Assembly: GCA_946548895.1 (NCBI GenBank) | Contig: CAMNQF010000006.1 | Span: forward strand, 1 to 64,000 | DNA from: an uncultured bacterium | GTDB taxonomy: Bacteria > Bacillota > Clostridia > Oscillospirales > Oscillospiraceae | Length of the DNA stretch: 64,000 nucleotides | Direction: 5' to 3' | In this document: positions 23,830 through 42,140 of the stretch, piece by piece | Layout: the number at the start of each line of letters is the position of its first letter | How positions within the stretch are numbered: position 1 is the stretch's first letter | Translations under genes and position numbers: made by a program | Notes under the pieces: generated by a model | The model's input: the letters and a program-made list of their open reading frames with translations, nothing else | Database searches by the model: none | Told to the model about the DNA's origin: nothing

Positions 23830-24161
23830 CGGTGCAGCACCTCCAATATTCCGTGGAAGTGGGCAGATACCTCTTCCTGCTCACTGGCTGAGAGTGCCTG
23901 AAACCACTCTACAGCCTGAAGCAGGTATTGCGTGGTGCTGATCTTTTGCACGAGCAGATCGTCGCTGACCAGACTGTCCAGAGAGAGGCCCAGCCCGTCA
24001 GCGATGCGCATGGCGGTATCCAGCGTGGTGTTGCCGCTGATGCGCGCTGATTGCAGCGTGGATTTTGGCACGCCGATCTCGCCAGCGAGCTCTGAAATGG
24101 ACTGTCCCTTGTAAATACGAATGGCCTCCAAATTCCTTGCAAATATCTCATGCTTCTCCAA
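23826..24161 (-). CDS. XRE-family repressor of the lysogeny operon
   Basis: A 111-residue regulator. Residues 8-62 form the helix-turn-helix (SISELAGEIGVPKSTLQSARISGNTTLDTAMRIADGL), with a C-terminal helical dimerisation part (QYLLQAVEWFQALSASEQEEVSAHF). The start codon ATG 24161 is preceded by GGAGGGATTC. It is the likely prophage repressor, first gene of a two-gene leftward operon with the Spo0A-like protein. Confidence 0.85.
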   Translation of the reverse strand: MEKHEIFARNLEAIRIYKGQSISELAGEIGVPKSTLQSARISGNTTLDTAMRIADGLGLSLDSLVSDDLLVQKISTTQYLLQAVEWFQALSASEQEEVSAHFHGILEVLHR

Positions 24162-24202
24162 CAGAATCCCTCCTGTCCCTACTTCATAAGAATAGCGGAT
24201 TC

Positions 24203-24209
24203 TGTCGAA
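24203..24209 (+). promoter_or_regulatory. 0A-box-like heptamer upstream of the repressor
   Basis: TGTCGAA, identical to the Spo0A box core, lies 42 bases before the repressor start. A heptamer alone occurs by chance about once in 8 kb per both strands, so its value comes from its place in the promoter region of an operon that encodes a Spo0A-type DNA-binding domain. Confidence 0.35.
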
Positions 24210-24329
24210 TTGTGGCGGCCGGATGTTCGGATTTCTGTGCGGGCTTTCGCACGGAAGATAGTGTTTTATACTTGATTTCCATAACGCGCTTCCTCTCTAT
24301 ATTGATACAGATTAGCGTTATGGATCTGG

Positions 24330-24361
24330 GAGGCCCACGGCACGCCGGGGGGCCTCTTTTT
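24330..24361 (+). terminator. Terminator-like hairpin at the prophage/element boundary
   Basis: GAGGCCC and GGGCCTC pair around a GC-rich loop and are followed by seven T residues. It faces rightward although no rightward gene precedes it nearby, so it may shield the recombinase region from phage read-through. Confidence 0.5.
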
Positions 24362-24556
24362 TGTGCCCCGAAGTTTGCCCCGAACTGCCCCCAAAGTGCC
24401 CCGAAAACCTGCTTTGCGTTTGGCGTAAAAGCAAGTCCAAAGCGCAACAAAAAACCCCTCAAACCATTCTGTTACTGTTCACAGGGACACAAGTTGAACC
24501 TACCCCAGTTACTGTGGAGCGGGCGGTGGAAGCCGTCCGCTCCCTTCGTTTTAGAC

Positions 24557-26158
24557 TTACGCCAGCATTTTCACGAGTTCCTCAATGGAGGGCAGAGACG
24601 TGATATGCGGCTGGCGTTCACCCGGCTCCATCGGGCTGTCCATGTTTCCAACATCCCGGTAGATGATCTTGACGCTCTGGGCCGAGCTGCGGGAATACTT
24701 GACCGTCCGCTCCCCAATCTCAATGCGCTGGATGAACAGCCGAACCAGTTCCGGCGTCAGCTGGTCAATAACGGTGAACCGCTTGGCCTTTTCAATGAAC
24801 GCTTCTACATTGGCGGCGGACGCTTTCAGCTTTTCCAGCCTGCCCTCCTTCTCTGGGATAGCCTCTTGTAGCGCTTTCTGCTCAGTGTTATAATCGGCGG
24901 AGAGCATTCGGAACTGCTCGGCGGTGATTCGTTGGAGGACATGATCCTCATAGAGACGCTTGAACAGCACGGACAGCTCACCATCCCGTTTCCGCATAGC
25001 GTCCAGTTCCTTTTGGAGCGCGTTCATCTCCTGGCGCAGCTCTTTGCTGTTCTTCTGATTGATGTAGGCTGCAAACTGCCGCTCCTTCATCCGGGCAAAG
25101 TGGGTCACCCGCTGGAGATCGTCCAGCACAATTTTGCACAGCTCATCCTCCCGGATATGGTGGGGAGAACACGCGGTTTTGCCCCGTTTTCCGTAGGTGT
25201 AACACGTAAAATTGTACCTGGCCTTTTTCATCGTGCTGGCCCGGTGGAGTACCATAGGCTTGCCGCAGTCGGCGCAGAAGGCTAACCCAGAGAAGATATT
25301 CGGCTCCTCCATCTGCTTTGGGATGCGCTTTTTGTGTTTCCTCACATCCTGTACGATGTCCCACAGCTCCTGGCTGACCAGCGCCGGGTGGGTATTTTCT
25401 ACCGTGATCTGCTCATCTTCCGGCCTGCGGATCAGCTTTTTGTTTTTGTAGGAGAGTGAGGTGGATCGTAAGCCCACCGTGTGCCCAAGGTAAGCCCTGT
25501 TGTCCAGGATACCCGTCACCGAGCTGCCGCTCCAGTCATAGGGACGAGTGATGTCCACATGGTTATGGGACTTTCCCTCTTTTTGATAGGCGTAATTTGC
25601 AGGTGTCAAAATCTGTTCCTCGGTTAAAATGCGGGCGATTTGGTTCGGGCCTTTCCCGCCGGCACACAACTGGAAAATGCGCTGGACGACGGGAGCGGTG
25701 TCCTCGTCTGGGACGATCTCTTTGCTGTCTGAGGACTTTTTGCGGTAGCCGTAGGGCGGCCTGCCGCCCAAGCGCTCACCCCGCTCTGCCTGCATCTTTT
25801 TCACCGCCCGAACCTTCTTGCTGGTGTCCTTGGCGTGCAGCTCGTTTGCCCAATTTCTGATGGGATTGAAATCGGTGCTGCTCTCCACCAGAGAATCCAC
25901 CCCATCATTGATGGCGATGAAACGGACGCCCTTCGTGGGCAAGTAGAGCTCCGTCAGCTGGCCCACCTGCAAATACTCGCGGCCCAAGCGGGACATATCC
26001 TTAACGATCAGCGTTTCCACCTCGTCCGCTTCGATCATTTCGATGACCTTTTTCCAAGAGGGGCGCTCGAAATTTGTCCCGCTGTACCCATCATCTGCCA
26101 GGAACAGTGCGTTCTCAAATCCATTGTCCTGTGCGTATTTTTCCAACAGCAGGCGCTG
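24557..26158 (-). pseudogene. Large serine recombinase of the outer element, C-terminal fragment
   Basis: About 532 residues of a large serine recombinase. It keeps the end of the resolvase domain (GYSGTNFERPSWKKVIEM, DMSRLGREYL), the recombinase domain (RLGGRPPYGYRKK, GPNQIARILTEEQ), the zinc-ribbon (FCADCGKPMVLHR) and the coiled coil. The catalytic Ser and first 29 residues are missing. Upstream of QRLLLEKYAQDNGF the frame runs into unrelated sequence. The missing start is at 38361-38447, after a 12.2 kb insertion. Internal ATG 26146 could give a product but it would lack the nucleophile. Confidence 0.9.
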
Positions 26159-26298
26159 AGAGGTAATATGTAGAGGGTGGTTTCTGCCACCAAATACATA
26201 TGACTGCGGCTCATTTGTGGTGAATGGAACTTGCAGTTGTAGGAAAGGAGAAAAAAGTCCGTAATTGCAGGCATTTCAACACGAAAGGAGCCGTTTTT

Positions 26299-26685
26299 GT
26301 GAAATCATTGTATGAACGCATGGGTGGTACATACCGCCAGGAGGGCGATTACTTCGTCCCCAACCTTGCCCTGCCGGACACCGGCGCATACCCCCTCGGC
26401 AAGTATGGCCGTATGCGCCGCCGCTACCTGAAAGCGCATCGCCCCGCCCTCTACAGTACCATGCTCTTGAATGGCACTCTAAGCCAGCACCTTGCCGAGA
26501 TTGACGAGACCTGCCATGAGCGCATGGAGCGCATCTGCGCCGCTATGGCGGCGCGGGAGGGCGTGACCGAGGCCCTGAAAACCTCCGACCAAATGGAGTG
26601 GGTGCGCCGTATGAACGGCATCCATAACCGCGCAGAGGAAATCGTCATGGCTGAATTGGTCTATACGGAAGATGGGAGGGCTTGA
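26299..26685 (+). CDS. Transposon-encoded protein TnpV
   Basis: A 128-residue protein with the TnpV signature: SLYERMGGTYRQEGDYFVPNLALP, a YGRMRRRYLKAHRPALY basic helix and HLAEIDETCHERMERI. TnpV proteins accompany Tn4451-type serine recombinases; the exact role is not established. GTG 26299 has GAAAGGAG upstream. First gene inside the inner element, on the same strand as the recombinase. Confidence 0.88.
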   Translation: MKSLYERMGGTYRQEGDYFVPNLALPDTGAYPLGKYGRMRRRYLKAHRPALYSTMLLNGTLSQHLAEIDETCHERMERICAAMAAREGVTEALKTSDQMEWVRRMNGIHNRAEEIVMAELVYTEDGRA

Positions 26686-26687
26686 AG

Positions 26688-27320
26688 ATGAAGAAAAATG
26701 TGCTATCGTTTGCATCCGGCGCAATCGCCACACTGTTGTTGGTGGGCTTGTCTGTTACCGCACTGGCGGTAAGCGGAACAATCACAATCGAGGTCAGCCC
26801 CATCAGCGTCCTTGTGGATGGCGAGGTATTCCAGCCCAAGGACGCCAAGGGAAACGATGTGATGGTCTTTACCTACAACGGCACAACCTATGCCCCCCTC
26901 CGGGCGCTGGCAGAAGCCTACGGACTGGAGGTGGGCTACGATGGGGAGAGGAACATCGCCACCGTCAGCAAGCAGCCCACGCAGACGCAGGCCCCCATCG
27001 CGGACACAGGCTATGCCGACTTTGAGCGGCAGTGGACGGTCAAGGAAAAGCCCGTCACCCACTACGGCGATGAGAAAATCTTTACCGTAACCTACTCCGG
27101 CGGCCTGAGCAGGAGCGAGTTCAAGGCATGGTGGAAATCCTACGACCTGTCCACCATCAAGGACTACGCCGAGCGAATGATGGCGGAGGTACAGAGCGAG
27201 GTCCCCGGCTATATCGTGACCGCCTACTTCTCCTATGGGCAGTACAACCTCGGCAGCGTCCACGCCGAGAGCGACTTTACCGGCAGCAACTTTGACGCCG
27301 CCGGCGTGTGGATCAAGTAA
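26688..27320 (+). CDS. Secreted stalk-domain (copper amine oxidase N-type) protein
   Basis: A 210-residue protein with a signal peptide (MKKNVLSFASGAIATLLLVGLSVTALAV) and a stalk domain (ISVLVDGEVFQPKD, TTYAPLRALAEAYGLEVGYD). The C-terminal 100 residues (FTVTYSGGLSRSEFKAWWKSYD) are not recognised. ATG 26688 lies seven bases after GGGAGGG. It is an exported passenger of the inner element, placed between tnpV and the recombinase genes; a surface role is likely but unknown. Confidence 0.8.
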   Translation: MKKNVLSFASGAIATLLLVGLSVTALAVSGTITIEVSPISVLVDGEVFQPKDAKGNDVMVFTYNGTTYAPLRALAEAYGLEVGYDGERNIATVSKQPTQTQAPIADTGYADFERQWTVKEKPVTHYGDEKIFTVTYSGGLSRSEFKAWWKSYDLSTIKDYAERMMAEVQSEVPGYIVTAYFSYGQYNLGSVHAESDFTGSNFDAAGVWIK

Positions 27321-27342
27321 AATTCATAAAGCAGCATAACAG

Positions 27343-27381
27343 GAAAACCCGTTTTCGGCAACCAGTCGAAAGCGGGTTTTC
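27343..27381 (+). terminator. Terminator after the stalk gene
   Basis: GAAAACCCG and CGGGTTTTC arms with extra TTTCG/CGAAA pairing, followed by TGCTTTTTCTG. It ends the tnpV-stalk transcript 23 bases after the stop. Confidence 0.7.
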
Positions 27382-27383
27382 TG

Positions 27384-27744
27384 CTTTTTCTGTCAATAGC
27401 GGTGCCTGCGAGGGCGACAAAAGGGGCCTGCAAGGCTGTTTTCAGGCAAGGGAAAATGCGTTAAGCTGAAATTGCCAAATAGAATGCCGATGCGAGAGTA
27501 ATTTACGTCCCTGTTTTCCTCCTACATAACGAAAATCCAAAAGCAGAAAGGTGGCACAGGCTGACAACTGAATGACCGTCCGAGCAGCTAAACCGCCATG
27601 ACCTCTCTTTATAGAGAGTGAGCGTCCCGCATGGGGACGACACAGCACTGGCTGGAGGATATGCCTGTCAGGAAACTGCTTCGGGAAAACGGCAGCCCAT
27701 ATTGAATTTCTATCTTTGGAGAATCAATATGAGGAGGAATGCCT
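27384..27744 (+). other. Long leader before tnpW, possibly structured RNA
   Basis: No protein gene is supported in these 360 bases. Several short stems are visible: CTCTCTTTATAGAGAG (27602-27617), CGTCCC GCAT GGGGACG (27623-27639) and GGCTGGAGG...CTGTCAGG-type pairings further on, before GAGGAGG at 27731. Its length and density of stems suggest a regulatory leader for tnpW and the recombinase. I could not assign an RNA family. Confidence 0.35.
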
Positions 27745-27960
27745 ATGGTAAAAAACAGCGCGAATCAAGAGTATCAATATATGACCCGCCGCATTGGCTC
27801 CACCACCTACAAGGTCAAGGTGTTTTTTAGCGATGGCGGCGAAACTCTGGAAGAAAAAATATTGCGGATGATCCGAAATGAGGGTAGCGCAGCCGCCCCT
27901 CCCTGTGGTATAATGGGGACACCACAAATGAGTCGTCAGTCTGAAAGGAGCGCGTCATGA
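27745..27960 (+). CDS. Transposon-encoded protein TnpW
   Basis: A 71-residue protein with the TnpW pattern YMTRRIGSTTYKVKVFFSD, then EKILRMIRNE. TnpW always lies directly before a Tn4451-type serine recombinase; it overlaps that gene by four bases here (ATGA). ATG 27745 sits seven bases after GAGGAGGA. Role unknown, possibly a recombination directionality or regulatory factor. Confidence 0.85.
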   Translation: MVKNSANQEYQYMTRRIGSTTYKVKVFFSDGGETLEEKILRMIRNEGSAAAPPCGIMGTPQMSRQSERSAS

Positions 27961-29975
27961 GCGCACAGACTGAAAGCAAGATCACCGCTTTGTACGAACG
28001 CCTCTCCCGCGACGATGACCTCGCTGGGGACAGTAACTCCATTATCAATCAAAAGAAATACCTCGAAGGCTACGCTGCCGACCATGGATACACAGGCTGT
28101 GTCCATTATACGGACGATGGCTGGTCCGGGGGAAATTTTGAGCGCCCCGCATGGAAACAACTCATTGCCGATATTGAGGCCGGAAAGATCGCCCATGTTT
28201 TGGTAAAGGACATGAGCAGAATCGGGAGAGACTATCTCCAAACCGGCTTCTATACGGAGGTTGTATTCCGGCGTCATGGCGTTCATTTTATTGCCATCGG
28301 CAACGGCATCGACAGCAGCGACCCCAACAGTGGGGAGTTCGCGCCGTTCATCAACATTATGAGCGAATGGTACTTACGGGATCTGAGCCGCAAGCAGCGC
28401 ACCGCCATCCGTGTCAAGGGCGAGTCCGGCAAGCCCACCACCAACTGCGCCATCTATGGCTATGTGAAAGACCCGGCGGATAAATACCACTGGGTTGTTG
28501 ACGAAGAAGCGGCGGCGGTAGTGCGGCGCATCTTCCAACTTACCATTGAAGGCAAAGGCCCTTATGACATCGCTCGTATCCTCCATGACGAAAAGGTAGA
28601 AGCGCCTGCTGTTTATCAGGCGCGGCAAGGGCGTGGGACATGGAAAACCAAAGAGGACTTTCCGCATCCTTACAACTGGAGCGGCTTTGTGGTGGGACAG
28701 ATACTTTCCAAGCCAGAGTATATGGGGCATACGGTCAACTTCCGTTCTCATAAGGAGTCGTACAAGGACAAAATCGCTGTCCGCAACACGCCGGAAAACT
28801 GGCTTATCTTTGAGAACACCCACGAAGCCATCGTGGATAAGGAGACTTGGGAGCTTGCCCAGAAGCTGCGGCAAACACCCCGCCGCCATGAACCCTTTGA
28901 AGAGGCCAATCCGTTCACCGGCCTGCTCTACTGCGCCGATTGCGGAGAGAAGTTGTACAACCATCGCAATCGCGGCACCAAGGACAAGCCCTACCTCACC
29001 GACGGTTTTAACTGCTCCAGCTACACCCTGTCCCGTCAGAAGCACTACAAGGCTTGCAGCAACCACCACATCTCCACCAAGGCGCTGCGGACGCTGGTGC
29101 TGGAGACCATCAGGGCCACCGCCGCCTACGCCATCTCTAACGAGGCCGAGTTTATCCGCAAGGTACGGGAAGCCTCCGCAGTACAGCAGGAACAGGCGGC
29201 AAAGGATGTCCGGCGCAGGCTGAACAAGGAGCGCAAGCGGCACACCGAGCTGGATGGGATTATCAAGAAGCTCTATGAATCCTTTGCAACGGGGCGTATC
29301 TCTGATGAGCGGTTTGACACACTGCTTGCCGGTTATGAGCAGGAGCAGAAAACGCTAAGTGAGTCCATTTCCGATGCGGAGATTTCTCTCGCTACTTTCG
29401 AGAAAGACACAGCAAGGGTTGACCGCTTTCTGGAGCTTGCGAAGAAGTACACAGATTTCTCGGAGCTGACTACGCCAATGATAAACGAGTTTATTGACAG
29501 GATCATCGTCCACGCCCCTGACCGTTCCGAGGGCGACAGGACGCAGGAAGTGGAGATTTACCTGAAGTACATCGGCAGATTTGAAGCGCCAATGCCGGAG
29601 CTTACCCCGGAGGAAGTCAAGCGGCAAGAACAGCTCCGCCGGCACCGTGTCAAGAGCAGGGAACGCTACCAAATGATTAAGGCAGGGGATCACACTGTCG
29701 GCCGGCCGTTCAAACTGACCTGCAAATGCTGCGGGAAAGAGTTTGAGTCCAAGAGAACAAACACCCTGTTCTGCGGTCCGAACTGCCGCACGAAATTCTA
29801 CCGGCAGGAGGCTGCGGAAAACAGGAGCCGCGAATGTATCTGCGAAAACTGCGGTGCGGCTTTTACTGCGGCGAGGAAGAATGTCAAATACTGCTGTGAC
29901 GCTTGCAGGGACGAGGCCCATCGGAAAATGCAGCGGGAGCGCAACGCGGCAAAGAGGGCGAAGAAAATTGCATAA
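27957..29975 (+). CDS. Large serine recombinase (TnpX-like) of the inner element
   Basis: A 672-residue integrase/transposase. Resolvase domain at residues 6-150 with catalytic Ser in YERLSRDDD, then SNSIINQ, DMSRIGRDYL; recombinase domain with NCAIYGYVKD and YDIARILHDE; zinc ribbon YCADCGEKLYNHR near residue 325; long coiled coil near 400-470. The C-terminal 90 residues carry two tandem CxxC...CxxxC zinc knuckles (CKCCGKEF...FCGPNC and CENCGAAF...CCDAC), beyond the usual family end. It should move the inner element by cut-and-join at a dinucleotide core. Intact, so the element may be mobile. Confidence 0.93.
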   Translation: MSAQTESKITALYERLSRDDDLAGDSNSIINQKKYLEGYAADHGYTGCVHYTDDGWSGGNFERPAWKQLIADIEAGKIAHVLVKDMSRIGRDYLQTGFYTEVVFRRHGVHFIAIGNGIDSSDPNSGEFAPFINIMSEWYLRDLSRKQRTAIRVKGESGKPTTNCAIYGYVKDPADKYHWVVDEEAAAVVRRIFQLTIEGKGPYDIARILHDEKVEAPAVYQARQGRGTWKTKEDFPHPYNWSGFVVGQILSKPEYMGHTVNFRSHKESYKDKIAVRNTPENWLIFENTHEAIVDKETWELAQKLRQTPRRHEPFEEANPFTGLLYCADCGEKLYNHRNRGTKDKPYLTDGFNCSSYTLSRQKHYKACSNHHISTKALRTLVLETIRATAAYAISNEAEFIRKVREASAVQQEQAAKDVRRRLNKERKRHTELDGIIKKLYESFATGRISDERFDTLLAGYEQEQKTLSESISDAEISLATFEKDTARVDRFLELAKKYTDFSELTTPMINEFIDRIIVHAPDRSEGDRTQEVEIYLKYIGRFEAPMPELTPEEVKRQEQLRRHRVKSRERYQMIKAGDHTVGRPFKLTCKCCGKEFESKRTNTLFCGPNCRTKFYRQEAAENRSRECICENCGAAFTAARKNVKYCCDACRDEAHRKMQRERNAAKRAKKIA

Positions 29976-30032
29976 GCCATTTGGGGCGGGTCAGGTTTTC
30001 TGGCCTGCCCTTTACCGACTGTAATTGAATCC

Positions 30033-30167
30033 AAGTGGCCAAATTGGCCACTTGAAGGACGAGCATGAATCAGTGGGCCGATTTGACCCGCTGATTTTAT
30101 TTGTGACGGAGTTCATCACAAGCACTTCACACCGCTAAAGTGGTGGGGGTCAATTTGACCCCCACCA
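30033..30167. repeat. Three inverted repeats, oriT-like cluster
   Basis: Three palindromes in 135 bases: AAGTGGCCAA-A-TTGGCCACTT (30033-30053, perfect); an imperfect AATCAGTGGG ... CCCGCTGATT (30068-30096); and TGGTGGGGGTCAA-T-TTGACCCCCACCA (30141-30167, perfect). All share a centre close to GGYCAAATTGRCC, so they look like repeats of one binding site. They lie upstream of a mobC remnant, where origin-of-transfer or relaxosome sites usually are. Confidence 0.65.
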
Positions 30168-30203
30168 AATCGTCGCCGCCTCTGGCGGTGGGAAGGAGTC
30201 GAT

Positions 30204-30344
30204 ATGAGTTCCGAAAATGGAGAATCCAAACGCGAGACTTTACTCCATTTTCGTGTATCCGCGGAAGAGGAGATACTGCGTTGGCGGGAGAAACTGTGGC
30301 AGTGCGCCAACGATATTTTGAAGAAGTTGGCCGCCATCGTCTGA
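30204..30344 (+). pseudogene. Remnant of a MobC-like relaxosome gene
   Basis: A 46-residue frame with a good ribosome site (GGAAGGAG) and a start like MobC proteins (KRETLLHFRVSAEEEILRWREK, where the family has FRVSxEEx.LIxxKM). It stops after LKKLAAIV, where full MobC proteins run on for another 60-70 residues. The inner element thus seems to descend from a mobilizable element that lost mobC and relaxase genes, with the defence operon now in their place. Confidence 0.5.
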
Positions 30345-30437
30345 CAATGTGTTTTGGAAAAAGCGCCGGAACGGCGCGCAGCCGCAGATGCCAATCTGCG
30401 AAAAAGGGGTTTGGGGGCGGGAGCCTCCAACAAGCTA

Positions 30438-30497
30438 AATCGGGGATTTCTGCTCCGGCAGAAATCCCTGATTTTCCGCATCTGTATATACAGATGC
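30438..30497. repeat. Strong hairpin and adjacent palindrome
   Basis: AATCGGGGATTTCTGC and GCAGAAATCCCTGATT pair over 16 positions with one mismatch and a four-base loop (30438-30473). Five bases later GCATCTGTATATACAGATGC (30478-30497) is a perfect 20-base palindrome. There is no T-run, so these are more likely transfer-origin or protein-binding remnants than a terminator. The stretch 30345-30672 has no supported gene. Confidence 0.6.
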
Positions 30498-30672
30498 CCA
30501 GCTTGCACAGTTGCAAAGTTTTCGTTGACGCAACGAGGAAAGTAAAAACACACTTCTATAGTGTGGATGCCCAATTTGCAAGGCCATAAGTTTTTCCCTC
30601 AAAAAAGCTTGACCAAGTTCGCTTAAACGAATATAATATAAGAGTCTTATTGTACATTTTGAGGTGCTTTCA

Positions 30673-30858
30673 ATGAATGGATACATTACAGTCCAAGAAG
30701 CTGCTGTAAAATGGGGAATCACCCCCAGGCAAGTTCAAATTCTATGTAAGGCAAATCGTGTTGACGGTGCCACTCGTATGAGTCGTATTTGGATTATTCC
30801 CGAAAATGCAGAAAAGCCGACAAACGACAAAAGAAAGGCAGCACACAACAATGACTAA
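30673..30858 (+). CDS. Small HTH protein, probable controller of the restriction operon
   Basis: A 61-residue protein with a MerR/excisionase-like helix-turn-helix: GYITVQEAAVKWGITPRQVQIL followed by a wing-like RMSRIWIIPENAEKP. ATG 30673 with GAGGTG upstream. It overlaps the restriction gene by eight bases. Such small DNA-binding proteins often head restriction-modification operons and delay nuclease expression after entry into a new host. This function is inferred. Confidence 0.75.
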   Translation: MNGYITVQEAAVKWGITPRQVQILCKANRVDGATRMSRIWIIPENAEKPTNDKRKAAHNND

Positions 30859-33844
30859 CCTAACTGAATTGCAGAACCTTGTAGAACGGTTTCAAGCTAA
30901 TATTGACTTTTACAAGGATTCAAGAAATGCGTACAATGAGCATTCTTGCAGAATTGAATACATTGATCCTCTGTTGAAGGTTTTGGGATGGGATGTCGCA
31001 AACGAAAAAGGACGGGCACCTCAATATCGAGAGGTCATTGCAGAGAATTATTCCACCCGTACAGATCGTCCCGATTACACTATCACACTCAGAGGTGTGC
31101 CCAAATTTTTTGTAGAAGCAAAGAAGCCAGCAGTTGATATTACCAAAGATGCAGCTCCTGCAGTCCAGACCAGAAAATATGGTTGGAACGCAAAACATCG
31201 ACTGGCTGTCCTCACAAATTTTGAATATCTTGCAATCTACGACACCTGCTATATTGCCCACGAGGATGACGGATGTGCTGTGGCCAGATACCGCCTGTAC
31301 CATTATACTGAGTATGTAGAAAAAATCGAAGAAATTGCGAGATTGATTGCGAGGGATACTGTCTACTCCGGTGATTTTGACGCTTATTTGGATGAAAATT
31401 TCCCTGCAACTGGGGGACAGACCCAGCAAGTTGATACACTCTTTCTTTCTCAGATCAACGAATGGCGTGTAGCCCTTAGCAACGAGCTTTATGCCCAAGG
31501 TGGTCGATATACATCGTTGGAAGTGTTGAACGATGTTGTACAGGAATTCATTAACCAGATTGTTTTTCTGAGAATCTGCGAAGATAAGAATCTGCCGCTG
31601 TACCACAACCTGAAATATACAATTACAGATTCCGCTCAGTTGAAATCAAATCTGGAGGAATTATTCCGTTCCGCTGACCGGCGCTATAACTCTGGAATGT
31701 TTTCTGGCAACGACATTATTTTCGATCTTTCATGTGAAGTTATTAAGGACATGATTGAGGGGCTGTATTATCCTCAGAGTCCGTATTTGTTTAATATTAT
31801 TGAACCTAATTTGCTCGGGAAAATTTACGAGATGTTCTTAACTGAGCAGTTGGTACTGCTTGAAAACAATACAATTGGTCTTAGCAAAAAGAAGGATTGT
31901 CAGAACAGATCTGTTGTTACCACCCCAACAGAAATCGTTAAGTACATGGTTGATAAGGCACTTTCCAAAGTGTGTGCGGGAAAAACACCAGCTGAGATTT
32001 TGAACATCAGCGTCGCTGATATTGCATGTGGTTCGGGTATTTTCTTGGAAGAAGCATTTGCCTTTTTGCAAGATTACTGTGTACAGTGGTATATGTGTAA
32101 CGGGCAAGCGGACCACTTGATTGAGATAGGTATCGATTTATACAAGCTGCCCCTCCAAGAGAAAAAAGACATTCTTTGCTCCTGTATTTACGGCATAGAC
32201 ATTGACATCCATGCGGTTGAAGTAACCAAGTTTTCTTTATTAATCAAGTTAATTGAAGATGAAACCTCACCTTCGGTGGCAGAAGTCGTTCCAATTCTTC
32301 CTGATCTGGGTGACAATATTCAATTTGGAAACTCTCTTGTCAGTCAAGCCGAGTTGAATGGGATCAGCGGTGCTAACCATCAGATGATGGAGATTATTCC
32401 CTTTGATTGGAGCGCAATCAACAATGGATGTGGCTTTGACGTGATTATTGGCAATCCCCCGTATGTGAATACTGAGGGAATGCACACACTGTTGCCGAGT
32501 GCAGAAGTAGAAATCTACAAAAAGAAGTACAAGACGTCGCACAAACAGTTTGATAAATACTTCATTTTCATAGAGCAGGCAATCAACAAGATCAGGGAAA
32601 ATGGATTGGTATGCTACATTGTTCCTAACAAATTCTTTAAAATTGGTGCTGGCGAAAAATTGCGTAGCCTGATTGCAACAGAAAGGATGCTCGTTAGCCT
32701 GGATGACTTTGGCGATGCACAGTTGTTCGAGGACAAAACCATTTACAGTTCGATTATTCTGCTTTCCAAAGAAAAGCAGGCAACATTTGTTTACAGTAGC
32801 ATCGATTCTGCTAACAAACTGTGGGCAGGTGAAACAATTGATGTTGTAGAGCTTTCTTCTACTGTGCTCAATGAATTGCCGTGGAGATTGACCACTGACT
32901 TGGAGTTTCTAAAGCTGCTCAAAAAAATAGATACTGTCGCAGTTCCAATCACCAAACATGCAGATATTTTCACCGGAATACAGACCAGCGCGGAAAAGAA
33001 GCGTACTTATTGGTTCTCTGATGAAGAAATAATCAGCGAGACGGAAGAATGCTATACGATTCAAAGAGATGGAAGAACATTTTCTATTGAAAAGAGGATC
33101 CTTCGTCCATATTTTAAGCCAGTCAAAAAATCTGAGAAGAAGCAAAACACATATAGCTATCTAACAACAAACAAGCATATTATTTTTCCTTATGATTTTA
33201 CTGGTAAAGTTATTCCCTTGGACGAACTTCAAACGAATTATCCGGGAACATACGAATATCTTGTGGCAAACTATGACATTTTGGCTCCCAAAGGGATTGT
33301 CTCAGGCGGAAAACGAGATGTTAATTATGCAACGGCGGATACATGGTATCGCTATGGTCGCCACCAGGCACTGACAGCATTCAATAACAGAAGGAAGCTC
33401 ATTGTAGGAATTTTAAGCAAAGAACCTATGTATGCTCTCGATACAAATGATTATTTGATTGCGTCGGGAGACACCGCTGGATACTGTGCTGTTTGTGAGC
33501 AAGAGGATAGTCCTTATGCATTGGAATACATTCAGGCTTGGTTAACAAACGAGTATACTGAGAAAATCTTGCAAATCATTGGTAGCGATTTTGAAAATGG
33601 TTTTTATTCCAGAGGTCGGTCTGTTCTGGTAACACTGCCATTTGTAGAGTTGAATTTCGGTGATTCAAAGCAAAAAGCCATCTACGATAGAGTTGTCGAA
33701 GCCACACGAGAAATTTATCGCATTAATGAAGAATTGAACGGACAGCCCGCAAAACGTATTGCGGCTACATTACAAAGGCAGAAAGAAAGTCTGATTTCTG
33801 AAATTCAAAGATTGATTGGCTCTGTATATCGACTTGAATTCTAA
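30851..33844 (+). CDS. Type IIG-like restriction enzyme/N6-adenine methyltransferase fusion
   Basis: A 997-residue protein from ATG 30851. Residues 1-150 resemble the HSDR_N nuclease domain: RIEYIDPLLKVLGWDV, then RPDYTI with the Asp and FFVEAKKP with Glu and Lys of a PD-(D/E)XK site. The middle is an N6-adenine methyltransferase: motif I DIACGSGIFLEEAF near residue 390 and motif IV NPPY near 534. The C-terminal 350 residues hold a TaqI-like specificity domain (GIVSGGKRDVNYAT, IGSDFENGFYSRGR). Eco57I-like enzymes cut and modify with one chain. AT-rich, unlike the flanks. Confidence 0.9.
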   Translation: MTNLTELQNLVERFQANIDFYKDSRNAYNEHSCRIEYIDPLLKVLGWDVANEKGRAPQYREVIAENYSTRTDRPDYTITLRGVPKFFVEAKKPAVDITKDAAPAVQTRKYGWNAKHRLAVLTNFEYLAIYDTCYIAHEDDGCAVARYRLYHYTEYVEKIEEIARLIARDTVYSGDFDAYLDENFPATGGQTQQVDTLFLSQINEWRVALSNELYAQGGRYTSLEVLNDVVQEFINQIVFLRICEDKNLPLYHNLKYTITDSAQLKSNLEELFRSADRRYNSGMFSGNDIIFDLSCEVIKDMIEGLYYPQSPYLFNIIEPNLLGKIYEMFLTEQLVLLENNTIGLSKKKDCQNRSVVTTPTEIVKYMVDKALSKVCAGKTPAEILNISVADIACGSGIFLEEAFAFLQDYCVQWYMCNGQADHLIEIGIDLYKLPLQEKKDILCSCIYGIDIDIHAVEVTKFSLLIKLIEDETSPSVAEVVPILPDLGDNIQFGNSLVSQAELNGISGANHQMMEIIPFDWSAINNGCGFDVIIGNPPYVNTEGMHTLLPSAEVEIYKKKYKTSHKQFDKYFIFIEQAINKIRENGLVCYIVPNKFFKIGAGEKLRSLIATERMLVSLDDFGDAQLFEDKTIYSSIILLSKEKQATFVYSSIDSANKLWAGETIDVVELSSTVLNELPWRLTTDLEFLKLLKKIDTVAVPITKHADIFTGIQTSAEKKRTYWFSDEEIISETEECYTIQRDGRTFSIEKRILRPYFKPVKKSEKKQNTYSYLTTNKHIIFPYDFTGKVIPLDELQTNYPGTYEYLVANYDILAPKGIVSGGKRDVNYATADTWYRYGRHQALTAFNNRRKLIVGILSKEPMYALDTNDYLIASGDTAGYCAVCEQEDSPYALEYIQAWLTNEYTEKILQIIGSDFENGFYSRGRSVLVTLPFVELNFGDSKQKAIYDRVVEATREIYRINEELNGQPAKRIAATLQRQKESLISEIQRLIGSVYRLEF

Positions 33845-33858
33845 AAGAGGTATTAACA

Positions 33859-35484
33859 ATGAGACTCAAAAAGGACAGCACTGAGCAAAAGCTAAGAGGA
33901 GCATATTACACACCATTACAGCTTGCAGATGCTATGGTGAGCCTTTTTGCGTCTCAAAATATCTCTACCATTTTGGAACCAAGTTGTGGAGATGGAGTAT
34001 TTCTTGACGCACTACAAAACCTTAATCTTCTGAATAAGGTGGAAAAAGTAACGGCTGTTGAAATCGAACCTGATGAGGCCGAAAAAGTTCGTGCCAGGTA
34101 TTCTGAGGTTGAGCAGATCGAAGTTTTCACCGAAGACTTTTTCGACTTCTATAATCGTGTTCTTGGCAAAGGACAGTACGATTTGATTTTGGGTAATCCC
34201 CCTTACATTCGCTATCAATATCTGAAAGAAAGTCAGCGAGAAATGCAATCTCAAATTTTGACTTCACATGGAATGAAAGCGAATAAGCTGATAAATGCGT
34301 GGGTTGCATTTATTGTGGCCTGCGTACAGCTGCTGTCTGAAAAGGGCAAGATTGCGTTTGTGATTCCAGCTGAAATCCTTCAAGTTGCGTACGCAGAGGA
34401 TTTGCGCCTATATTTGACTAATAATCTTGCGAAAATCACTTTGATTACATTCGAGCAACTTGTGTTCCCTGACATTGAACAAGAAGTCGTTGTGTTTATT
34501 GGTGAAAAAGGTGAAGAAGAGAAAGGCATTCGTATTATTGAAATGAATGATCTTGGCGGTTTTTCTCAATTAGATCTATCTCAAAATGGCTTCCAAAAGC
34601 TACAACATGTCAGGGAAAAATGGACAAAATACTTCGTAACTCCAGAAGAGATGGCGCTTATTCAGGAGCTACGTACAGATAAGCGTTTTGCCAAATTTTC
34701 TGAATATGGAATTATCAATATTGGAATAACCACAGGAAATAATAGATACTTCTCCATTACAGAAGAAACATCTGAGCACTACCAACTGGGCGAAGTCACT
34801 CTCCCTCTAATTGGAAGAAGTTCTCACGCTCACGGAATATACTTCACATCGGAAGATTGGGAAAATAATAAGCTTTCAAGGAAGCGAGCTCGACTAATTT
34901 ACTTCCCTGATATTCCGTATGATGAATACCCCGCTAAACATAAAGAGTACATTATGCTTGGTGAAACAAACGGTGAACATGAAGGATACAAATGCTCTAT
35001 TAGAGAACGGTGGTACATTATTCCTTCTGTGTGGGTTCCAGATGCGTTTTTTCTCAGGCGCAATAACTTATATCCGAAGTTCGTGCTTAATTGTTGCGGT
35101 GCGGTTTCAACTGACACTATGCACAGGATGAAATTCAATGCTAATGTGGAACCAGAAAACATCCTTCTGGCGTATTACAATAGCGTTTCTTTTGCTTTTA
35201 CAGAAATATGTGGCAGAAGCTATGGTGGCGGAGTTCTCGAAATTCTCCCTGGGGAGATGGGCAATATCCTTTTGCCCAAAATAGAACATATTGATTCCAG
35301 CCTACGCAACAGCATTCTTGAAGAAGTTGATAGAATTGTTCGGAATGATGAGAATATCGAAAAAGCACTTGACCTTGTAGACCAAGAGGTTCTGGTTAAT
35401 CTACTTAAGATTGAGCCGGATATTTGTAAGCATTTTAGGCGGATTTGGAAAAAGATGCAGAAGCGAAGATTAGGACGAGGATAA
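33859..35484 (+). CDS. Second N6-adenine DNA methyltransferase, Eco57I/TaqI-like
   Basis: A 541-residue methyltransferase 14 bases after the first enzyme. Motif X/start RGAYYTPLQLADAMV, motif I ILEPSCGDGVFLDAL near residue 38-52, motif IV ILGNPPYIRYQYL near 110, motif VIII-like KIAFVIPAEILQVAYAEDLR, and a C-terminal specificity domain (GIINIGITTGNNRYFSI; CGRSYGGGVLEILPGEMGNI). It lacks a nuclease domain. It may protect host DNA at the second strand or a second site. Low GC like the rest of the operon. Confidence 0.88.
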   Translation: MRLKKDSTEQKLRGAYYTPLQLADAMVSLFASQNISTILEPSCGDGVFLDALQNLNLLNKVEKVTAVEIEPDEAEKVRARYSEVEQIEVFTEDFFDFYNRVLGKGQYDLILGNPPYIRYQYLKESQREMQSQILTSHGMKANKLINAWVAFIVACVQLLSEKGKIAFVIPAEILQVAYAEDLRLYLTNNLAKITLITFEQLVFPDIEQEVVVFIGEKGEEEKGIRIIEMNDLGGFSQLDLSQNGFQKLQHVREKWTKYFVTPEEMALIQELRTDKRFAKFSEYGIINIGITTGNNRYFSITEETSEHYQLGEVTLPLIGRSSHAHGIYFTSEDWENNKLSRKRARLIYFPDIPYDEYPAKHKEYIMLGETNGEHEGYKCSIRERWYIIPSVWVPDAFFLRRNNLYPKFVLNCCGAVSTDTMHRMKFNANVEPENILLAYYNSVSFAFTEICGRSYGGGVLEILPGEMGNILLPKIEHIDSSLRNSILEEVDRIVRNDENIEKALDLVDQEVLVNLLKIEPDICKHFRRIWKKMQKRRLGRG

Positions 35485-35526
35485 AGCGATGGTTGGGCCT
35501 AAATTTGAACGAAGGGAGGAAAATCT

Positions 35527-36525
35527 ATGGAATGGAGCGGCTGTATGAGTTTACTCCAAGGATATTTGGAAAATAGCCCTTTGATAGTTTTAGGCTCAGG
35601 TGCATCTATGCCATACGAGCTTCCTTCTATGAGTGGGCTTGCAGAAAAAATAAGGAAATCCAATATTGTGATTTCCGATCCTAATTATAATACCTTTTGT
35701 GCGGCAGTAGACAATTCAGGACTGGAAGGCGCAATAGATGCTGTGACTCTTCTTCCTGAAACACTAAAAGAAATTCGTAAAGTGGTCTGGAAAACTGTCA
35801 ACGAGAAGGATCTTCTCTATTTTGATCAACATCCTATGAACCCACCACAAGCATTGGTTGAGCTAATTAGAAAGGTACTTGCCCCCACTCCTAATAAAGC
35901 ATCTATTGTAACTACCAATTATGACAGATTGGCAGAATATGCCGCTGATGGAGTTGGCGCAACCACAGTTACTGGATTTGAGGGTTCCTTAATTAAAAGA
36001 TTAGAACTCCCTTCGGTCCCGTTAAAAGCAAAACGAACACGATCTCGTGAAAGAGTTGTTGACATTTGGAAAGTTCACGGTTCTCTGGACTGGTTTATTG
36101 CTCCCGATGGAACGGTTACAGCATTCCCGCTTACTCGAACAATTCCTAATGATTTTCAGCCCCTGATTATTCCTCCCGGTAAAGAGAAATACAGTAGCAC
36201 ACATGATGAGCCATATCGAACTGTTATTGCGGAGGCAGATAATGCTTTTGTGCAAGCTGGTGCATACTTATGCGTAGGCTATGGTTTTAACGATGAACAT
36301 ATTCAGCCAAAGCTTTTAGCGCAGATTTCTAAAGGTAAACCTATTGTTATTCTTGCCAGAACTATGACCCCAGCTTGTAGAAAGCATATTGTGGAAGCAG
36401 GGATAAGCAAATACCTTGTTTTTGAGTTTTCAGATTCCACCCATACCAAAGTATATGGCAATGGGTGGGAAGAAATATATGAAGGTCAATATTGGCTCTT
36501 GGATAACTTTATAGAAATTTGGTGA
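35527..36525 (+). CDS. SIR2-domain defence protein, partner of HerA
   Basis: A 332-residue protein of the SIR2/Rossmann type. NAD-site motifs: VLGSGAS (residues 21-27), TTNYDRL (129-135, Asn131 and Asp133), KVHGSLDW with His184, and VGYGFNDEHI (250-259). This is the catalytic set of defence NADases rather than deacetylases. GGGAGG precedes ATG 35527. It is followed at 11 bases by a HerA ATPase; SIR2-HerA pairs are a known anti-phage system in which the complex depletes NAD+ on infection. Here it is in one operon with two methyltransferases. Confidence 0.88.
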   Translation: MEWSGCMSLLQGYLENSPLIVLGSGASMPYELPSMSGLAEKIRKSNIVISDPNYNTFCAAVDNSGLEGAIDAVTLLPETLKEIRKVVWKTVNEKDLLYFDQHPMNPPQALVELIRKVLAPTPNKASIVTTNYDRLAEYAADGVGATTVTGFEGSLIKRLELPSVPLKAKRTRSRERVVDIWKVHGSLDWFIAPDGTVTAFPLTRTIPNDFQPLIIPPGKEKYSSTHDEPYRTVIAEADNAFVQAGAYLCVGYGFNDEHIQPKLLAQISKGKPIVILARTMTPACRKHIVEAGISKYLVFEFSDSTHTKVYGNGWEEIYEGQYWLLDNFIEIW

Positions 36526-36536
36526 GGAGGGGTACA

Positions 36537-38246
36537 ATGAGCATATTCGAATATACGCCCGAAGAACTACTTGGTACTGTTGAAAGCGTAGATACATCTA
36601 CTGTGATAGTAAAAGTTGAGAATGACGATAAGCTGCGTGGATTACAGGTAAACCATTTAATCTCTATTCAAAGCTCAAAAATAGGACAGCACCTAATAGG
36701 TTTGGTATCCAAAATAATCCGCAAGTCAGCGTACAGTGATCCGGTTGCAGAATTATCTCCTGAATTGGGTTTTAATATTATTAAAGTGATTCTAATCGGA
36801 ACACATTTTGACAAGGATGCCGGAAAAGATAATGTCTTTCGTCGTTCTTTAGCTACCATTCCAACCATAAATGCTGAATGCCATCTTATACATGGAGAGA
36901 GATTAAAGCGATTCATGCAAGCAATATCTTCTATTCCGGAAGGTGAAGATGCAGTTAGTTTGCAAATCGGTAATTATTCTATTGATGAAGATGCTACGGC
37001 TTGGCTTAATGGAAATAAATTGTTCCAACGCCATGCAGTAATTGTTGGTAGTACAGGATCAGGAAAATCATGGTGTGTAGCTAAAATACTTGAACAGGTT
37101 GCAGTTCTAAAATCAGCAGATGCAATATTGTTTGATATACATGGCGAATACTCTACTTTGCAAAGTGATAGTTTTACGCACCTTAAGGTTGCGGGACCGA
37201 ATGATGCAATAGGCGAAGGGATGCTTTTCCTTCCATATTGGTTGCTTACTTATGAAGAAATGCTATCACTCATGCTTGATAGGAGCGACAATAATGCTCC
37301 GAACCAAGCTATGATGTTCAGCAGCGCTGTTATTGAAGGGAAAAAGCAATTTCTGACTGATGCAGGGAAAGCCGAGATGGAGGCAAATATCACTTTGGAT
37401 AGCCCTATCCCTTATAATCTTAATGCGTTGCTTTCTTTTTTGAAATCGAAAGATGAGGAAATGGTACCTGGAGCTAAAGCGAATACTGAAAAGCAAGGCC
37501 CATACTTCGGAAAGCTTACTCGTTTCATTCAGCGTTTGGAAACCAAGCAAAAAGACAAACGTTTAAATTTCATGTTTGCATCAGAGGCCGATTTGCTTAG
37601 TTATGATTACATGTGTGTACTCTGTAGCAAGTTAATGTTGCCCGCTGAAGAAGGCAAAAAAGGTGTAAAAATTATTGATTTTTCCGAGGTGCCGTCAGAT
37701 ATTCTTCCGTTAATCGTGTCTCTTATTGCTCGTGTTATTTTTTCTGTTCAGCAATGGACGACTGTTGAACATCGACATCCTATTGCAATTTTCTGTGATG
37801 AGGCACATTTGTATATCCCAGCAAACACCGAAAAAAGCATTGATGATGCCAGTTTAATCACTTTTGAACGTATTTCAAAAGAAGGTAGAAAATACGGAAT
37901 CGGTTTAGTTGTCATTTCGCAACGACCGTCAGAAGTCAATAGAACGGTTCTTAGTCAAAGTAATAATTTTATTGCGATGAGATTGACAAATGTTGATGAT
38001 CAATCTGTTGTTAAGCGTTTGCTACCAGATAGTTTAGGCGATTATGCTGAAATGCTCCCCATTCTTGATATTGGAGAAGCTTTGGTTGTTGGAGATGCAA
38101 GTCTTTTGCCAAGTCGTATAAGAATTTCACCCCCTACTCTAAAACCTCGCAGTGCAACAATTGATTTCTGGGACGAATGGTCTAAGCCCACCTCTACTGT
38201 TGATATTTCAGGAGCTATCGAGGCATTACGAAAACAATCGAAATAA
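36537..38246 (+). CDS. HerA/FtsK-like ATPase of the SIR2-HerA system
   Basis: A 569-residue hexameric ATPase starting at ATG 36537 (GAGGAGGGG upstream). The N-terminal HAS-barrel-like domain (LLGTVESVDTSTVIVKV) is followed by Walker A GSTGSGKSW near residues 171-179, Walker B IAIFCDEAHLYIP with Asp421, and the sensor VISQRPSEVNRTVLSQ. The C-terminal end has PSRIRISPP, usual in HerA. It would assemble with the SIR2 protein into the effector complex, and might move along or sense DNA ends. Last gene of the operon, then a strong terminator. Confidence 0.9.
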   Translation: MSIFEYTPEELLGTVESVDTSTVIVKVENDDKLRGLQVNHLISIQSSKIGQHLIGLVSKIIRKSAYSDPVAELSPELGFNIIKVILIGTHFDKDAGKDNVFRRSLATIPTINAECHLIHGERLKRFMQAISSIPEGEDAVSLQIGNYSIDEDATAWLNGNKLFQRHAVIVGSTGSGKSWCVAKILEQVAVLKSADAILFDIHGEYSTLQSDSFTHLKVAGPNDAIGEGMLFLPYWLLTYEEMLSLMLDRSDNNAPNQAMMFSSAVIEGKKQFLTDAGKAEMEANITLDSPIPYNLNALLSFLKSKDEEMVPGAKANTEKQGPYFGKLTRFIQRLETKQKDKRLNFMFASEADLLSYDYMCVLCSKLMLPAEEGKKGVKIIDFSEVPSDILPLIVSLIARVIFSVQQWTTVEHRHPIAIFCDEAHLYIPANTEKSIDDASLITFERISKEGRKYGIGLVVISQRPSEVNRTVLSQSNNFIAMRLTNVDDQSVVKRLLPDSLGDYAEMLPILDIGEALVVGDASLLPSRIRISPPTLKPRSATIDFWDEWSKPTSTVDISGAIEALRKQSK

Positions 38247-38292
38247 GAGGAAGAACGGATAAGTACGAAAATCGGGCATAGTAGGTAAAAGT

Positions 38293-38332
38293 GGCGGCAT
38301 GGGATACCAAAATCCTGTGCTGCCGTTTTTTT
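38293..38332 (+). terminator. Terminator of the defence operon
   Basis: GGCGGCATGGGAT pairs with ATCCTGTGCTGCC (three G-T pairs) and is followed by seven T residues. It lies 46 bases after the herA stop and about 30 bases before the right end of the inner element. Confidence 0.8.
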
Positions 38333-38360
38333 GGCGAAATTATCCTTGACAAATGGCGTC

Positions 38361-38447
38361 TTGGTTGATGATGGAATTCGAATCGCCCAACCGGGCATCC
38401 TCCTGACTGAGCCGTCCGTAGAGGATCGTATATTTTTGGCTTGCCAT
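38361..38447 (-). pseudogene. Large serine recombinase of the outer element, N-terminal fragment
   Basis: A leftward start, AAAGGAGG then ATG 38447, encodes MASQKYTILYGRLSQEDARLG then DSNSIINQ: the first 29 residues of a large serine recombinase, including the catalytic Ser14 in GRLSQED. After Gln29 the frame enters the inner element (DAICQG, stop at 38343). The remaining 532 residues lie at 24557-26155. Joined, they make a normal protein of about 561 residues. Position directly after the relaxase and small gene is the expected place for the outer element's recombinase. Confidence 0.88.
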
Positions 38448-38530
38448 TTTTATGATTTCCTCCTTTCCGGGGGCAAGCCGGTACGGTACACACACTATAC
38501 CGCACCGGCCCGCCGAAGTCTACTGAAACC

Positions 38531-38809
38531 TTACCCGGTGCGGGTATCTTTTTTCAACTCGACGTCAATGAGTTCCAGCATTTTGTCTGTGGGAGTGGCG
38601 GTGGGGTGGCTGGGGAATACGGAGGAGATGTGGAAACACTTTCCTTCAATGAGCATCTTCCGTTCGCGGACATAGTGCCCCTCGCGCCGCCAAGAGTCCG
38701 TGTCACGAAAAATCGTATTGACGCCATCTTCCTCCTGCTGCAAAATCGCGCTTTCCGGGTGGTAGGCACCCAGCATCCCGGTGGTCATGTATTCCTGCAA
38801 TTCGGTCAT
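38531..38809 (-). CDS. Small protein of the mobilizable element
   Basis: A 92-residue protein starting at ATG 38809 with AAAGGAG upstream, between relaxase and recombinase. It begins MTELQEYMTTGMLGAYHPES and has a conserved-looking KMLIEGKCFHISSVFPSHP core followed by DKMLELIDVELKKD. Similar short genes are regular between relaxase and recombinase in Clostridial mobilizable elements; their role is unknown. Confidence 0.75.
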   Translation of the reverse strand: MTELQEYMTTGMLGAYHPESAILQQEEDGVNTIFRDTDSWRREGHYVRERKMLIEGKCFHISSVFPSHPTATPTDKMLELIDVELKKDTRTG

Positions 38810-38829
38810 AGAACTCCTTTCCCCCTGCT

Positions 38830-39825
38830 TCACAGGGTCTGTTCAAAATGGTATTCTTCGCCGCCAAACTTCTGGCCCATGGCCAGCTTTTTCAATGCTT
38901 CCCGGCGGCGCTGTTTGCTGTCCGTCCAGACGGGAGGTGCGGGGAGCTGCCACTCCTCATCGCGCTCCAGGTCGGTTGCTACCCGGAACCACCCGGCGGC
39001 CAGCTCACCCAGCCAGCCCTCGTCTGGCTCCACCGTTTGGGGACGGAAGCCTGTGGCCTGACGGTAGAGGAACAGCATCTCAAGGTTTTCCTTGAGGAAG
39101 GTTTCATCATGGAGGCTGCTGTCCCGGCACTTGCGCCCGTTGGGACAGGTGAAGGTGATGTGCTTCCGGGTGTCCGACCAGGAAACCTCATAACCCTCCA
39201 CCTCCATGTTTTCGATGAAGCTCTCCCGGCTGGTGGCGTATTCCAGCGCTTCGTTGATGGCCTGGATCAGATCCAGCTTCCAGCTGTCACCGCGCAGACC
39301 GGCCTGGTATTCGCCGGGCTTCATGCGCCTCTTTTTGGTACGCAGTTCGCACTCGTCCAGCACCCGAAGACCGTGGGCCAGACAGATTTCATCGTTCACT
39401 TTACGGTGCGTCAGCAGGTCGCAGGGGCTTTGATGGAGCTTGTGGCCGTCCTTGTGGCTGACGCTGTTTACCACCATGTGGTTGTGCAAATGGCCGGTGT
39501 CAACGTGGGTGGCGATCACCACCTCGAAGTTCGGGAACTGCCGCTGGGCAAACTCCAGACCGATGGCGTTGACCTCCTGGGGCGTGATGTCGTCCTCCAC
39601 GGAGAAAGATTGGACGAAGTGGTAGAACTGCGTCCCTCCTGTTTTGCGAAAGCGTTCCTTGGTCATCTGCATCTCGATGAATGCGGACTGTGGAACACAG
39701 TTGTTGCCGGTGACCAGCCACATATCGCCCCAGCGGGTCTTTTCTTCCTTCTCCACGTAGTCGAGCACGCCGCGCATGGAACTGGCGGACTGTTTTTTGC
39801 ATTGGATCGCGGTGAAGGTCGCCAT
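38830..39825 (-). CDS. Relaxase/mobilization nuclease (MobA/VirD2 type)
   Basis: A 331-residue relaxase that nicks the transfer origin and stays on the DNA end. It begins MATFTAIQCKKQSASSMRGVLDYV, with a likely catalytic Tyr in this N-terminal part, and has the metal-binding His cluster in ATHVDTGHLHNHMVVNSV. ATG 39825 overlaps the mobC stop (TGATG), so the pair is coupled. The C-terminal part is shorter than in conjugative plasmids. It is intact, so the outer element could still be mobilised if excised by other means. Confidence 0.9.
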   Translation of the reverse strand: MATFTAIQCKKQSASSMRGVLDYVEKEEKTRWGDMWLVTGNNCVPQSAFIEMQMTKERFRKTGGTQFYHFVQSFSVEDDITPQEVNAIGLEFAQRQFPNFEVVIATHVDTGHLHNHMVVNSVSHKDGHKLHQSPCDLLTHRKVNDEICLAHGLRVLDECELRTKKRRMKPGEYQAGLRGDSWKLDLIQAINEALEYATSRESFIENMEVEGYEVSWSDTRKHITFTCPNGRKCRDSSLHDETFLKENLEMLFLYRQATGFRPQTVEPDEGWLGELAAGWFRVATDLERDEEWQLPAPPVWTDSKQRRREALKKLAMGQKFGGEEYHFEQTL

Positions 39826-40139
39826 CAGCGCACCTCTCGAATGAGCATCCCCAGCGTATCGCACAGCCGGGTGTACTCTTGAACGAGGTCGTCCCCTCGC
39901 AGAACAGTGATCCGTCCCATGTTGGCCAGCGTGGTGAGCTGGTTGAGGTTGCGGCCCTGGGCTTTCAGCTCAGAGAGCAGACCGTCCAGCCCGTCTACCC
40001 GGACAATCTCCTTGCCGAGGGCGCAGGTGGTGAGGTAGTCCGTGACCGTCATACCTGCGGCCCTGGCCCGCTGGTGGATGGCCTTTTTGTCCGCCGCCGT
40101 CATCCTGGCGGTGATGATCTCGGTTTTTCTTTTCTGCAT
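39825..40139 (-). CDS. Relaxosome accessory protein MobC
   Basis: A 104-residue MobC family protein: ribbon-helix-helix start (KTEIITARMTAADKKAIHQRARAAGMTVTDYL), then the family core LKAQGRNLNQLTTLANMGRI. It binds near oriT and helps the relaxase open DNA. Its gene starts next to a 267-base region rich in hairpins (40140-40406), the likely transfer origin. Confidence 0.9.
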   Translation of the reverse strand: MQKRKTEIITARMTAADKKAIHQRARAAGMTVTDYLTTCALGKEIVRVDGLDGLLSELKAQGRNLNQLTTLANMGRITVLRGDDLVQEYTRLCDTLGMLIREVR

Positions 40140-40406
40140 TTATGTCCTTTCTCCCCCTTTAGGGGGCAGGGGGTGCCGGGGCATCACCCCGGCGAGTGCG
40201 GCACGGCGTATAGCCGGACGCGATGCTTGCCCTACCCAAAAGGGTAGGCTTCCGCCCCAGCGGGGCGCTTCTGCCATGCCCTAAACTGGACGCTCCCCAC
40301 AAACGGCCCACAAAGGCCGCACACCGCGCCCGAACCGTTTTGCGGGTCATTCCCCGCCTCACCCCGCAAAAGCGGGCACAGGGCCGCACACGGGCCAACG
40401 CGGCGG
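40140..40406. other. Candidate transfer origin (oriT) region
   Basis: No gene is supported. Short hairpins are dense: GCCGGGG/CCCCGGC near 40173-40193, CTACCC-AAAA-GGGTAG (40233-40248), CGCCCCAGCGGGGCG (40254-40268) and CCCGC-AAAA-GCGGG (40364-40377). Together with its place before mobC and relaxase this suggests oriT. The nick site cannot be read from sequence alone. Confidence 0.5.
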
Positions 40407-41447: not shown

Positions 41448-41533
41448 GTGTTATCCTCCTTAAGTGTATTGAGAGGATCACCCTCTCATTTCCATAGGAC
41501 ACTCGGAAACGGTTTGTAAACCATGGAAAACAA

Positions 41534-41937: not shown

Positions 41938-42140
41938 TGACGTCCTTTCCGCTTACACGAAAAGGCGCACACCCGCGCTGCCGGCACAGCGCCAAATACT
42001 GTGGAACACTCATGGATATTTCATCGTACAGTGGGGTTCAAATGCCCTGTGCGGCCCATGAATGTCAGAGGTCACACATCGGTGTGGACCTCACCGGAAA
42101 GCTGCAGATATTGGCTTCCGCCTATTTGGTATTATATCCC

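Follow-up and report, generated by a model that had tools for sequence, protein, structure and literature searches.

The window analysed here is a 64,000-nucleotide stretch (positions 1 to 64,000) of contig CAMNQF010000006.1 from an uncultured bacterium of the Oscillospiraceae (assembly GCA_946548895.1). The genome comprised 3.8 Mb in 116 contigs, and the contig carrying the window was 128 kb. The window contained a large serine recombinase (LSR) gene in two pieces, with one element (the inner element) between them and further genes of the element that owns the split gene (the host element) beyond the N-half. The features were as follows.

24557–26158, minus strand: host LSR, C-half of the split gene: 532 codons starting at 26155, following what remains of the Gln codon
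26157–26158, no strand: left TG core copy, which reads CA in the gene and supplies positions 1 and 2 of the NSIINQ Gln codon
26159–38361, plus strand: inner element, 12,203 bp between cores, delimited by the cores and by both ends, which are repeated in other genomes
26159–26270, plus strand: left end (AGAGGTAATATGTAGAGGGTGG...), imperfectly matching the right end in inverted orientation and recurring in other genomes
26224–26685, plus strand: TnpV-family protein (PF14198, E 1.5e-45)
26682–27320, plus strand: copper amine oxidase N-terminal-type domain protein (PF07833)
27957–29975, plus strand: TnpX-like LSR of 672 aa (Resolvase, Recombinase, Zn_ribbon_recom, DUF4368)
30806–33844, plus strand: type IIG restriction enzyme-methyltransferase (PDLC03604, E 2.3e-258; Eco57I, HSDR_N)
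33859–35484, plus strand: type II DNA methyltransferase (PDLC03267, E 1.4e-178)
35527–36525, plus strand: SIR2 protein, SIR2-HerA type (PDLC04087, E 3.3e-107)
36519–38246, plus strand: HerA ATPase, SIR2-HerA type (PDLC04105, E 8.8e-234)
38330–38361, plus strand: right end (...TTGACAAATGGCGTCT), the same end as in relatives
38362–38363, no strand: right TG core copy, from the sequence
38362–38447, minus strand: N-half of the split host LSR (catalytic Ser side), with a ribosome site upstream
38531–38833, minus strand: small ORF of the host element, adjoining the LSR in relatives too
38830–39864, minus strand: relaxase of the host element (PF03432, E 1.2e-36)
39825–40139, minus strand: MobC-like mobilization protein of the host element (weak NF041264 MobA matches, below cut-off; conserved place in relatives)
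40407–41447, minus strand: AAA ATPase of the host element (PF13481; conserved place in relatives)

The N-half started at 38447 with GGAGG upstream, and 38447..38362 encoded MASQKYTILYGRLSQEDARLGDSNSIIN (...LGDSNSIIN) and the CA of the next Gln codon. The C-half ended with a stop at 24557; its Pfam domains were Recombinase, Zn_ribbon_recom, DUF4368 and the greater part of Resolvase. The two TG cores were 12,203 bp apart. With one core retained, the codons on either side of the insertion were in frame and read Asn-Gln-Arg-Leu-Leu-Leu, as in uninterrupted relatives, the two halves being read separately and not joined. This agreed with the original prediction, which had an inserted element splitting an LSR gene after SNSIINQ (residues 1–29 at 38361–38447, the remaining 532 at 24557–26155), with a shared TG through which the halves could be rejoined in frame. 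The intact TnpX-like recombinase that it assigned to the inner element was present as an open 672-aa frame (27957–29975).

The ends of the inner element were imperfect inverted repeats (right, TTGACAAAT-N4-TCT; left, AGA-N4-AT.TGTA.AGG). No relaxase was found by Pfam among the seven inner-element proteins scanned. The cargo between 30806 and 38246 was defence-like, consisting of the type IIG restriction enzyme, the methyltransferase and the SIR2-HerA pair. An altered inverted copy of the left-end motif (ATGACTGCGGCTCATTTG) lay directly upstream of tnpX at 27922–27940, and many of the named loci described below had weak matches resembling this motif in front of tnpX; it is possibly a regulatory or binding site. 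The window's own genome contained a second left end and TnpV gene (G000:C96, L003, 2931–3443), with no adjoining LSR code. An apparent 430-bp insertion in the tnpX genes of L156–L164 and others turned out to be a further ORF, with a zinc finger, downstream of the gene.

The surroundings of relatives of the split host LSR were read in nine stretches. The N- and C-parts were contiguous in four of them (L235–L238), with a C-part 71–72% identical to that of the window, and the order AAA-MobC-MobA-small ORF-LSR was kept in L236–L238 (L235 stopped within MobA). L239 was cut at another place, and L240–L243 showed the C-part only. Thus the split gene has intact relatives next to the same mobilization genes, and its N-half is of the same LSR kind, so that neither observation named as refuting the original prediction was made; one LSR element does lie inside the integrase gene of another, as had been proposed. 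Among 300 genomes of the family, no uninterrupted copy of this LSR closer than ~71–73% DNA identity (over long stretches) was found. Together with an assembly of 116 contigs, this would leave some room for a chance insertion or an assembly artefact limited to the window's genome; the same junction type was present in independent genomes, including L174, and such an accident is hardly credible.

With positions 24000–42500 of the window as query, plasmid records gave no match and phage records gave one short match (L019), whose flank was an LSR N-half. A prophage-like stretch with a phage terminase (422–23133) adjoined the host element. The right part of the window contained a MoxR-type AAA protein at 58328–59722 (bpMoxR, of MoxR-vWA-beta-propeller systems) and a GNAT acetyltransferase at 60.2 kb. 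No drug-resistance protein was named among 20 window proteins, a subset of the window's genes, scanned against Pfam.

Matches to the left end were detected in 32 of 300 genomes of the family (the window's own included), 23 of 394 at the order level and 6 of 391 at the class level, these three draws overlapping. LSR code ran right up to the left end in 16 of the first 36 loci read, one being a duplicate and one having only 18 nt. In a collection of named genomes, TnpX as query then gave 325 relatives, the best 80 being kept as loci, and left ends were placed in 57 of these 80 with a left-end profile. The left flanks were classed by reading frame, judged by eye (L186 had a flank of only 30 nt). 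TnpX relatives were present in all placed elements, the set itself having been gathered with TnpX. Among these best 80 of 325 relatives, 31 of the 57 placed left ends were at the same LSR dinucleotide: 24 followed an N-half whose end was NSIxNQ or closely similar to it, in the gene sense and with core CA, and seven abutted a C-half in reverse, antisense and with core TG. The remaining ends were at another LSR site (3 of 57) or in other DNA (23 of 57).

A pattern search for right ends covered the 37 genomes that contain 38 of the 80 loci; the hosts are accordingly not independent. There were 46 matches, compared with three for the reversed pattern. Thirty-five matches became loci, of which two had another core and one had no flank; 21 of the 32 assessable right ends abutted an LSR half in frame and 11 were not in LSR genes. 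The window's genome contained 28 matches to PF07508 in 3.8 Mb, so that landing on an NSIxNQ spot by chance would be very unlikely. The original prediction had proposed a search for the same inner element in other recombinase genes, and the same junction was found in many different LSR genes; the split in the window is therefore more than chance. What the first reading of the window missed is the specific, recurrent targeting of the NSIxNQ site by the inner element's family.

The left end of CA-type elements was beside the N-half and, in TG-type elements, the right end was. By itself the core fits this reversal, TG being CA when read from the opposite strand. In a tree built from 79 recombinases, without L183 and L196 (too short or not located), two changes were needed to explain both orientations of the LSR-inserted rows. 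The clade of the window comprised 47 rows, 26 at NSIxNQ, nine elsewhere and 12 unresolved, and near-identical recombinases were found at both LSR and non-LSR sites.

One element was found in five named genomes of four genera (Faecalibacterium hattorii, Faecalibacterium sp. I4-1-79, Agathobaculum sp., Hominifimenecus microfluidus and Brotaphodocola catenula). Its length, calculated from both end positions and including the cores, was 19,849 bp in each, and the copies were 99.86–100% identical to that of L174, a record titled complete chromosome, over the 16.3 kb compared. The five ORFs of this element scanned in L174 included a MobA_MobL relaxase and a response regulator. No two copies shared an LSR gene, and coding sequence from both halves was visible in all five, the Brotaphodocola copy having only 29 C-half codons before the contig end. 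Identity to L174 began at most 70 bases before the core.

Placement of an attachment site inside a gene, as described in the available text on ICEs in rumA (PMC4701971), would allow the LSR halves to belong to the element itself and to travel along with it. This reading is very improbable, as copies at least 99.86% identical were flanked by halves of five different LSRs and intact relatives of the window's split LSR adjoin the same mobilization genes. Relaxed specificity combined with survivorship would be another explanation: many CA/TG sites would be used, and LSR genes would be in excess only because hits in mobile elements cost the cell nothing. The 23 of 57 left ends located elsewhere, even for near-identical recombinases, are in keeping with this, as is the description of DUF4368 LSRs as multi-targeting in the part of PMC10083194 available. 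Under survivorship, insertions should be scattered along LSR genes and other mobile genes, yet one dinucleotide accounted for 31 of the 34 LSR insertions, and five copies of one element were at that base in five different LSR genes. We therefore consider it an unlikely explanation.

Uninterrupted target sites were found as well. For one LSR gene family (...LITALYPRLSHEDELQGESNSISNQ), 22 loci were examined. Five rows were cut at the same base, representing four insertions by different elements (L151/L244 at one place, L175, L179 and L208); 16 loci were uninterrupted, the code continuing over the 45 bases shown, and one locus had no usable hit. Four of the 16 uninterrupted loci matched L179 exactly over the 42 bases that precede the cut, and two of the 16 genes (in G202 and G066) had open frames of 548 codons.

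Very probably, then, the TnpV/TnpX-type family of the inner element, which occurs in gut bacteria, has the NSIxNQ code of other LSRs as its preferred attachment site, the host integrase being disabled until excision. The joined ends would recombine with LSR-coding DNA at CA/TG, where the Gln codon begins, and a core that is CA in some lineages and TG in others would fit landing in or against the gene sense. The recombining enzyme is presumably the element's own TnpX, perhaps acting with TnpV. Insertion separates the catalytic Ser from the rest of the protein, so that the host element would lose its integrase and would be unable to leave by itself. Because the catalytic Ser is severed and a search of the 128-kb contig with the inner TnpX gave no additional LSR relative, the host element can soundly be expected to be immobile while interrupted; the two elements might thereby stay linked, as the original prediction supposed. 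The inner element could itself still leave, and an exact excision would restore the LSR frame. No joined ends or circular attP were found in the viral contigs searched.

The inner element has in common with clostridial mobilizable transposons of the Tn4451/Tn4453/Tn6104 type a TnpX-like LSR (Resolvase, Recombinase, zinc ribbon, DUF4368), TnpV and a 2-bp core at both ends. The core of the Tn4451 type is GA, whereas here it is TG/CA. Unlike that type, the copy in the window lacks a relaxase in the genes scanned, although the 19.85-kb relative in L174 has MobA_MobL. Low integration specificity has been described for the Tn4451 group (PMC5704250, available text), in contrast to the preference for one LSR codon here (31 of 57 placed ends, with 23 elsewhere). 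Nested TnpX/TnpV transposons are on record in C. difficile, where the available part of PMC3158075 describes Tn6104–Tn6106 inside the conjugative transposon Tn6103.

Site-specific disruption of a conserved gene of another mobile element by an LSR element is also common to serine-integrase IMEs. From the sections available, these interrupt traG, snf2 and maff2 of streptococcal ICEs (PMC5357655, PMC5704250), and IME_Rho_tet is largely in maff2 (PMC12904643). The oriT of ICEs is also a target of known relatives. The IMEs use transfer or unknown genes of particular ICE families, whereas in the present case it is the integrase gene itself that is hit, across many LSR families and in both orientations. 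Skin-type elements split sigK, and their exact excision would restore the frame (PMC5025042, available text); the gene split here belongs, in contrast, to another mobile element. The inner TnpX carries DUF4368, as does the multi-targeting LSR clade. In the part of PMC10083194 available, target-gene enrichment considered only LSRs outside that clade, so a preference such as NSIxNQ targeting would not have shown. In the literature searched, whose reach left out many subscription papers, no report of LSR or integrase genes as a preferred target was found.

The arrangement would amount to a systematic conflict between mobile elements at the integrase gene, in which the most conserved mobility-enzyme code of rivals serves as the landing site. 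For target and direction choice by serine integrases it offers a resource of natural attachment sites, two core variants with opposite orientations and one element in five targets. It is also suggested that some truncated-looking LSR genes in gut Firmicutes are split rather than lost. Insertion may, in addition, hold defence cargo in place (in the window's copy, type IIG restriction and SIR2-HerA).

Targets resembling the element's own recombinase were also hit: the N-halves at L037/L068, L089 and L230 looked like the inner element's own recombinase type, indicating that siblings are not spared. A T at position −7 was present in 50 of 51 own-type recombinase genes, 7 of 41 targets and 1 of 15 other LSRs. 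Own-type genes thus differed from the targets, but the targets were no different from the 15 other LSRs (Fisher P 0.43) and the own-type genes are one lineage, so that self-avoidance remains a lead only.

Other LSR lineages were found at other LSR motifs. The three LSR insertions off NSIxNQ shared a different motif and belonged to a sister clade of TnpX elements (L218, L219 and L220), located in LSR genes at coiled-coil code ending ...LYE; L222 lay in a topoisomerase gene, at an LYE motif resembling this one. In G246 (L239:6244–12940), a relative of the window's host LSR was cut within ...GQYTE/IYFP by a 6.7-kb insert carrying a distantly related LSR. A search with the end of this insert gave 4 of 200 genomes, one of them G087, in which the same C-side junction recurred (L241:1–70). 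A broader interpretation, which we offer tentatively and which may well be too strong, is that of an integrase-hunting family: its attachment site would be the catalytic code of serine recombinases including close kin (L037/L068, L089, L230), competitors and siblings would be disarmed as it spreads, its insertions serving as a removable lock on host mobility, and at least two other LSR lineages would follow the same strategy at other LSR motifs (the coiled coil and the motif before YFP).

Several loci departed from the common arrangement. L063/L168 had an LSR half on the left flank and none on the right flank. The left ends of L047 and L080 were in genes not reading as LSRs: one of these flanking genes presumably encodes an IS3-type transposase (...RYIHFYN), and the flanking DNA of the other was close to an LSR target. 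When 12 C-halves were measured, eight were open for at least 511 codons and four were broken within 35–123 codons, indicating that some host LSRs are damaged further. The C-halves of two different loci (L138:8245–8460 and L158:8487–8702) both stopped after 72 codons with identical final residues (...IGLNQKDLENQGILA), suggestive of another insertion within the LSR gene that is common to the two.
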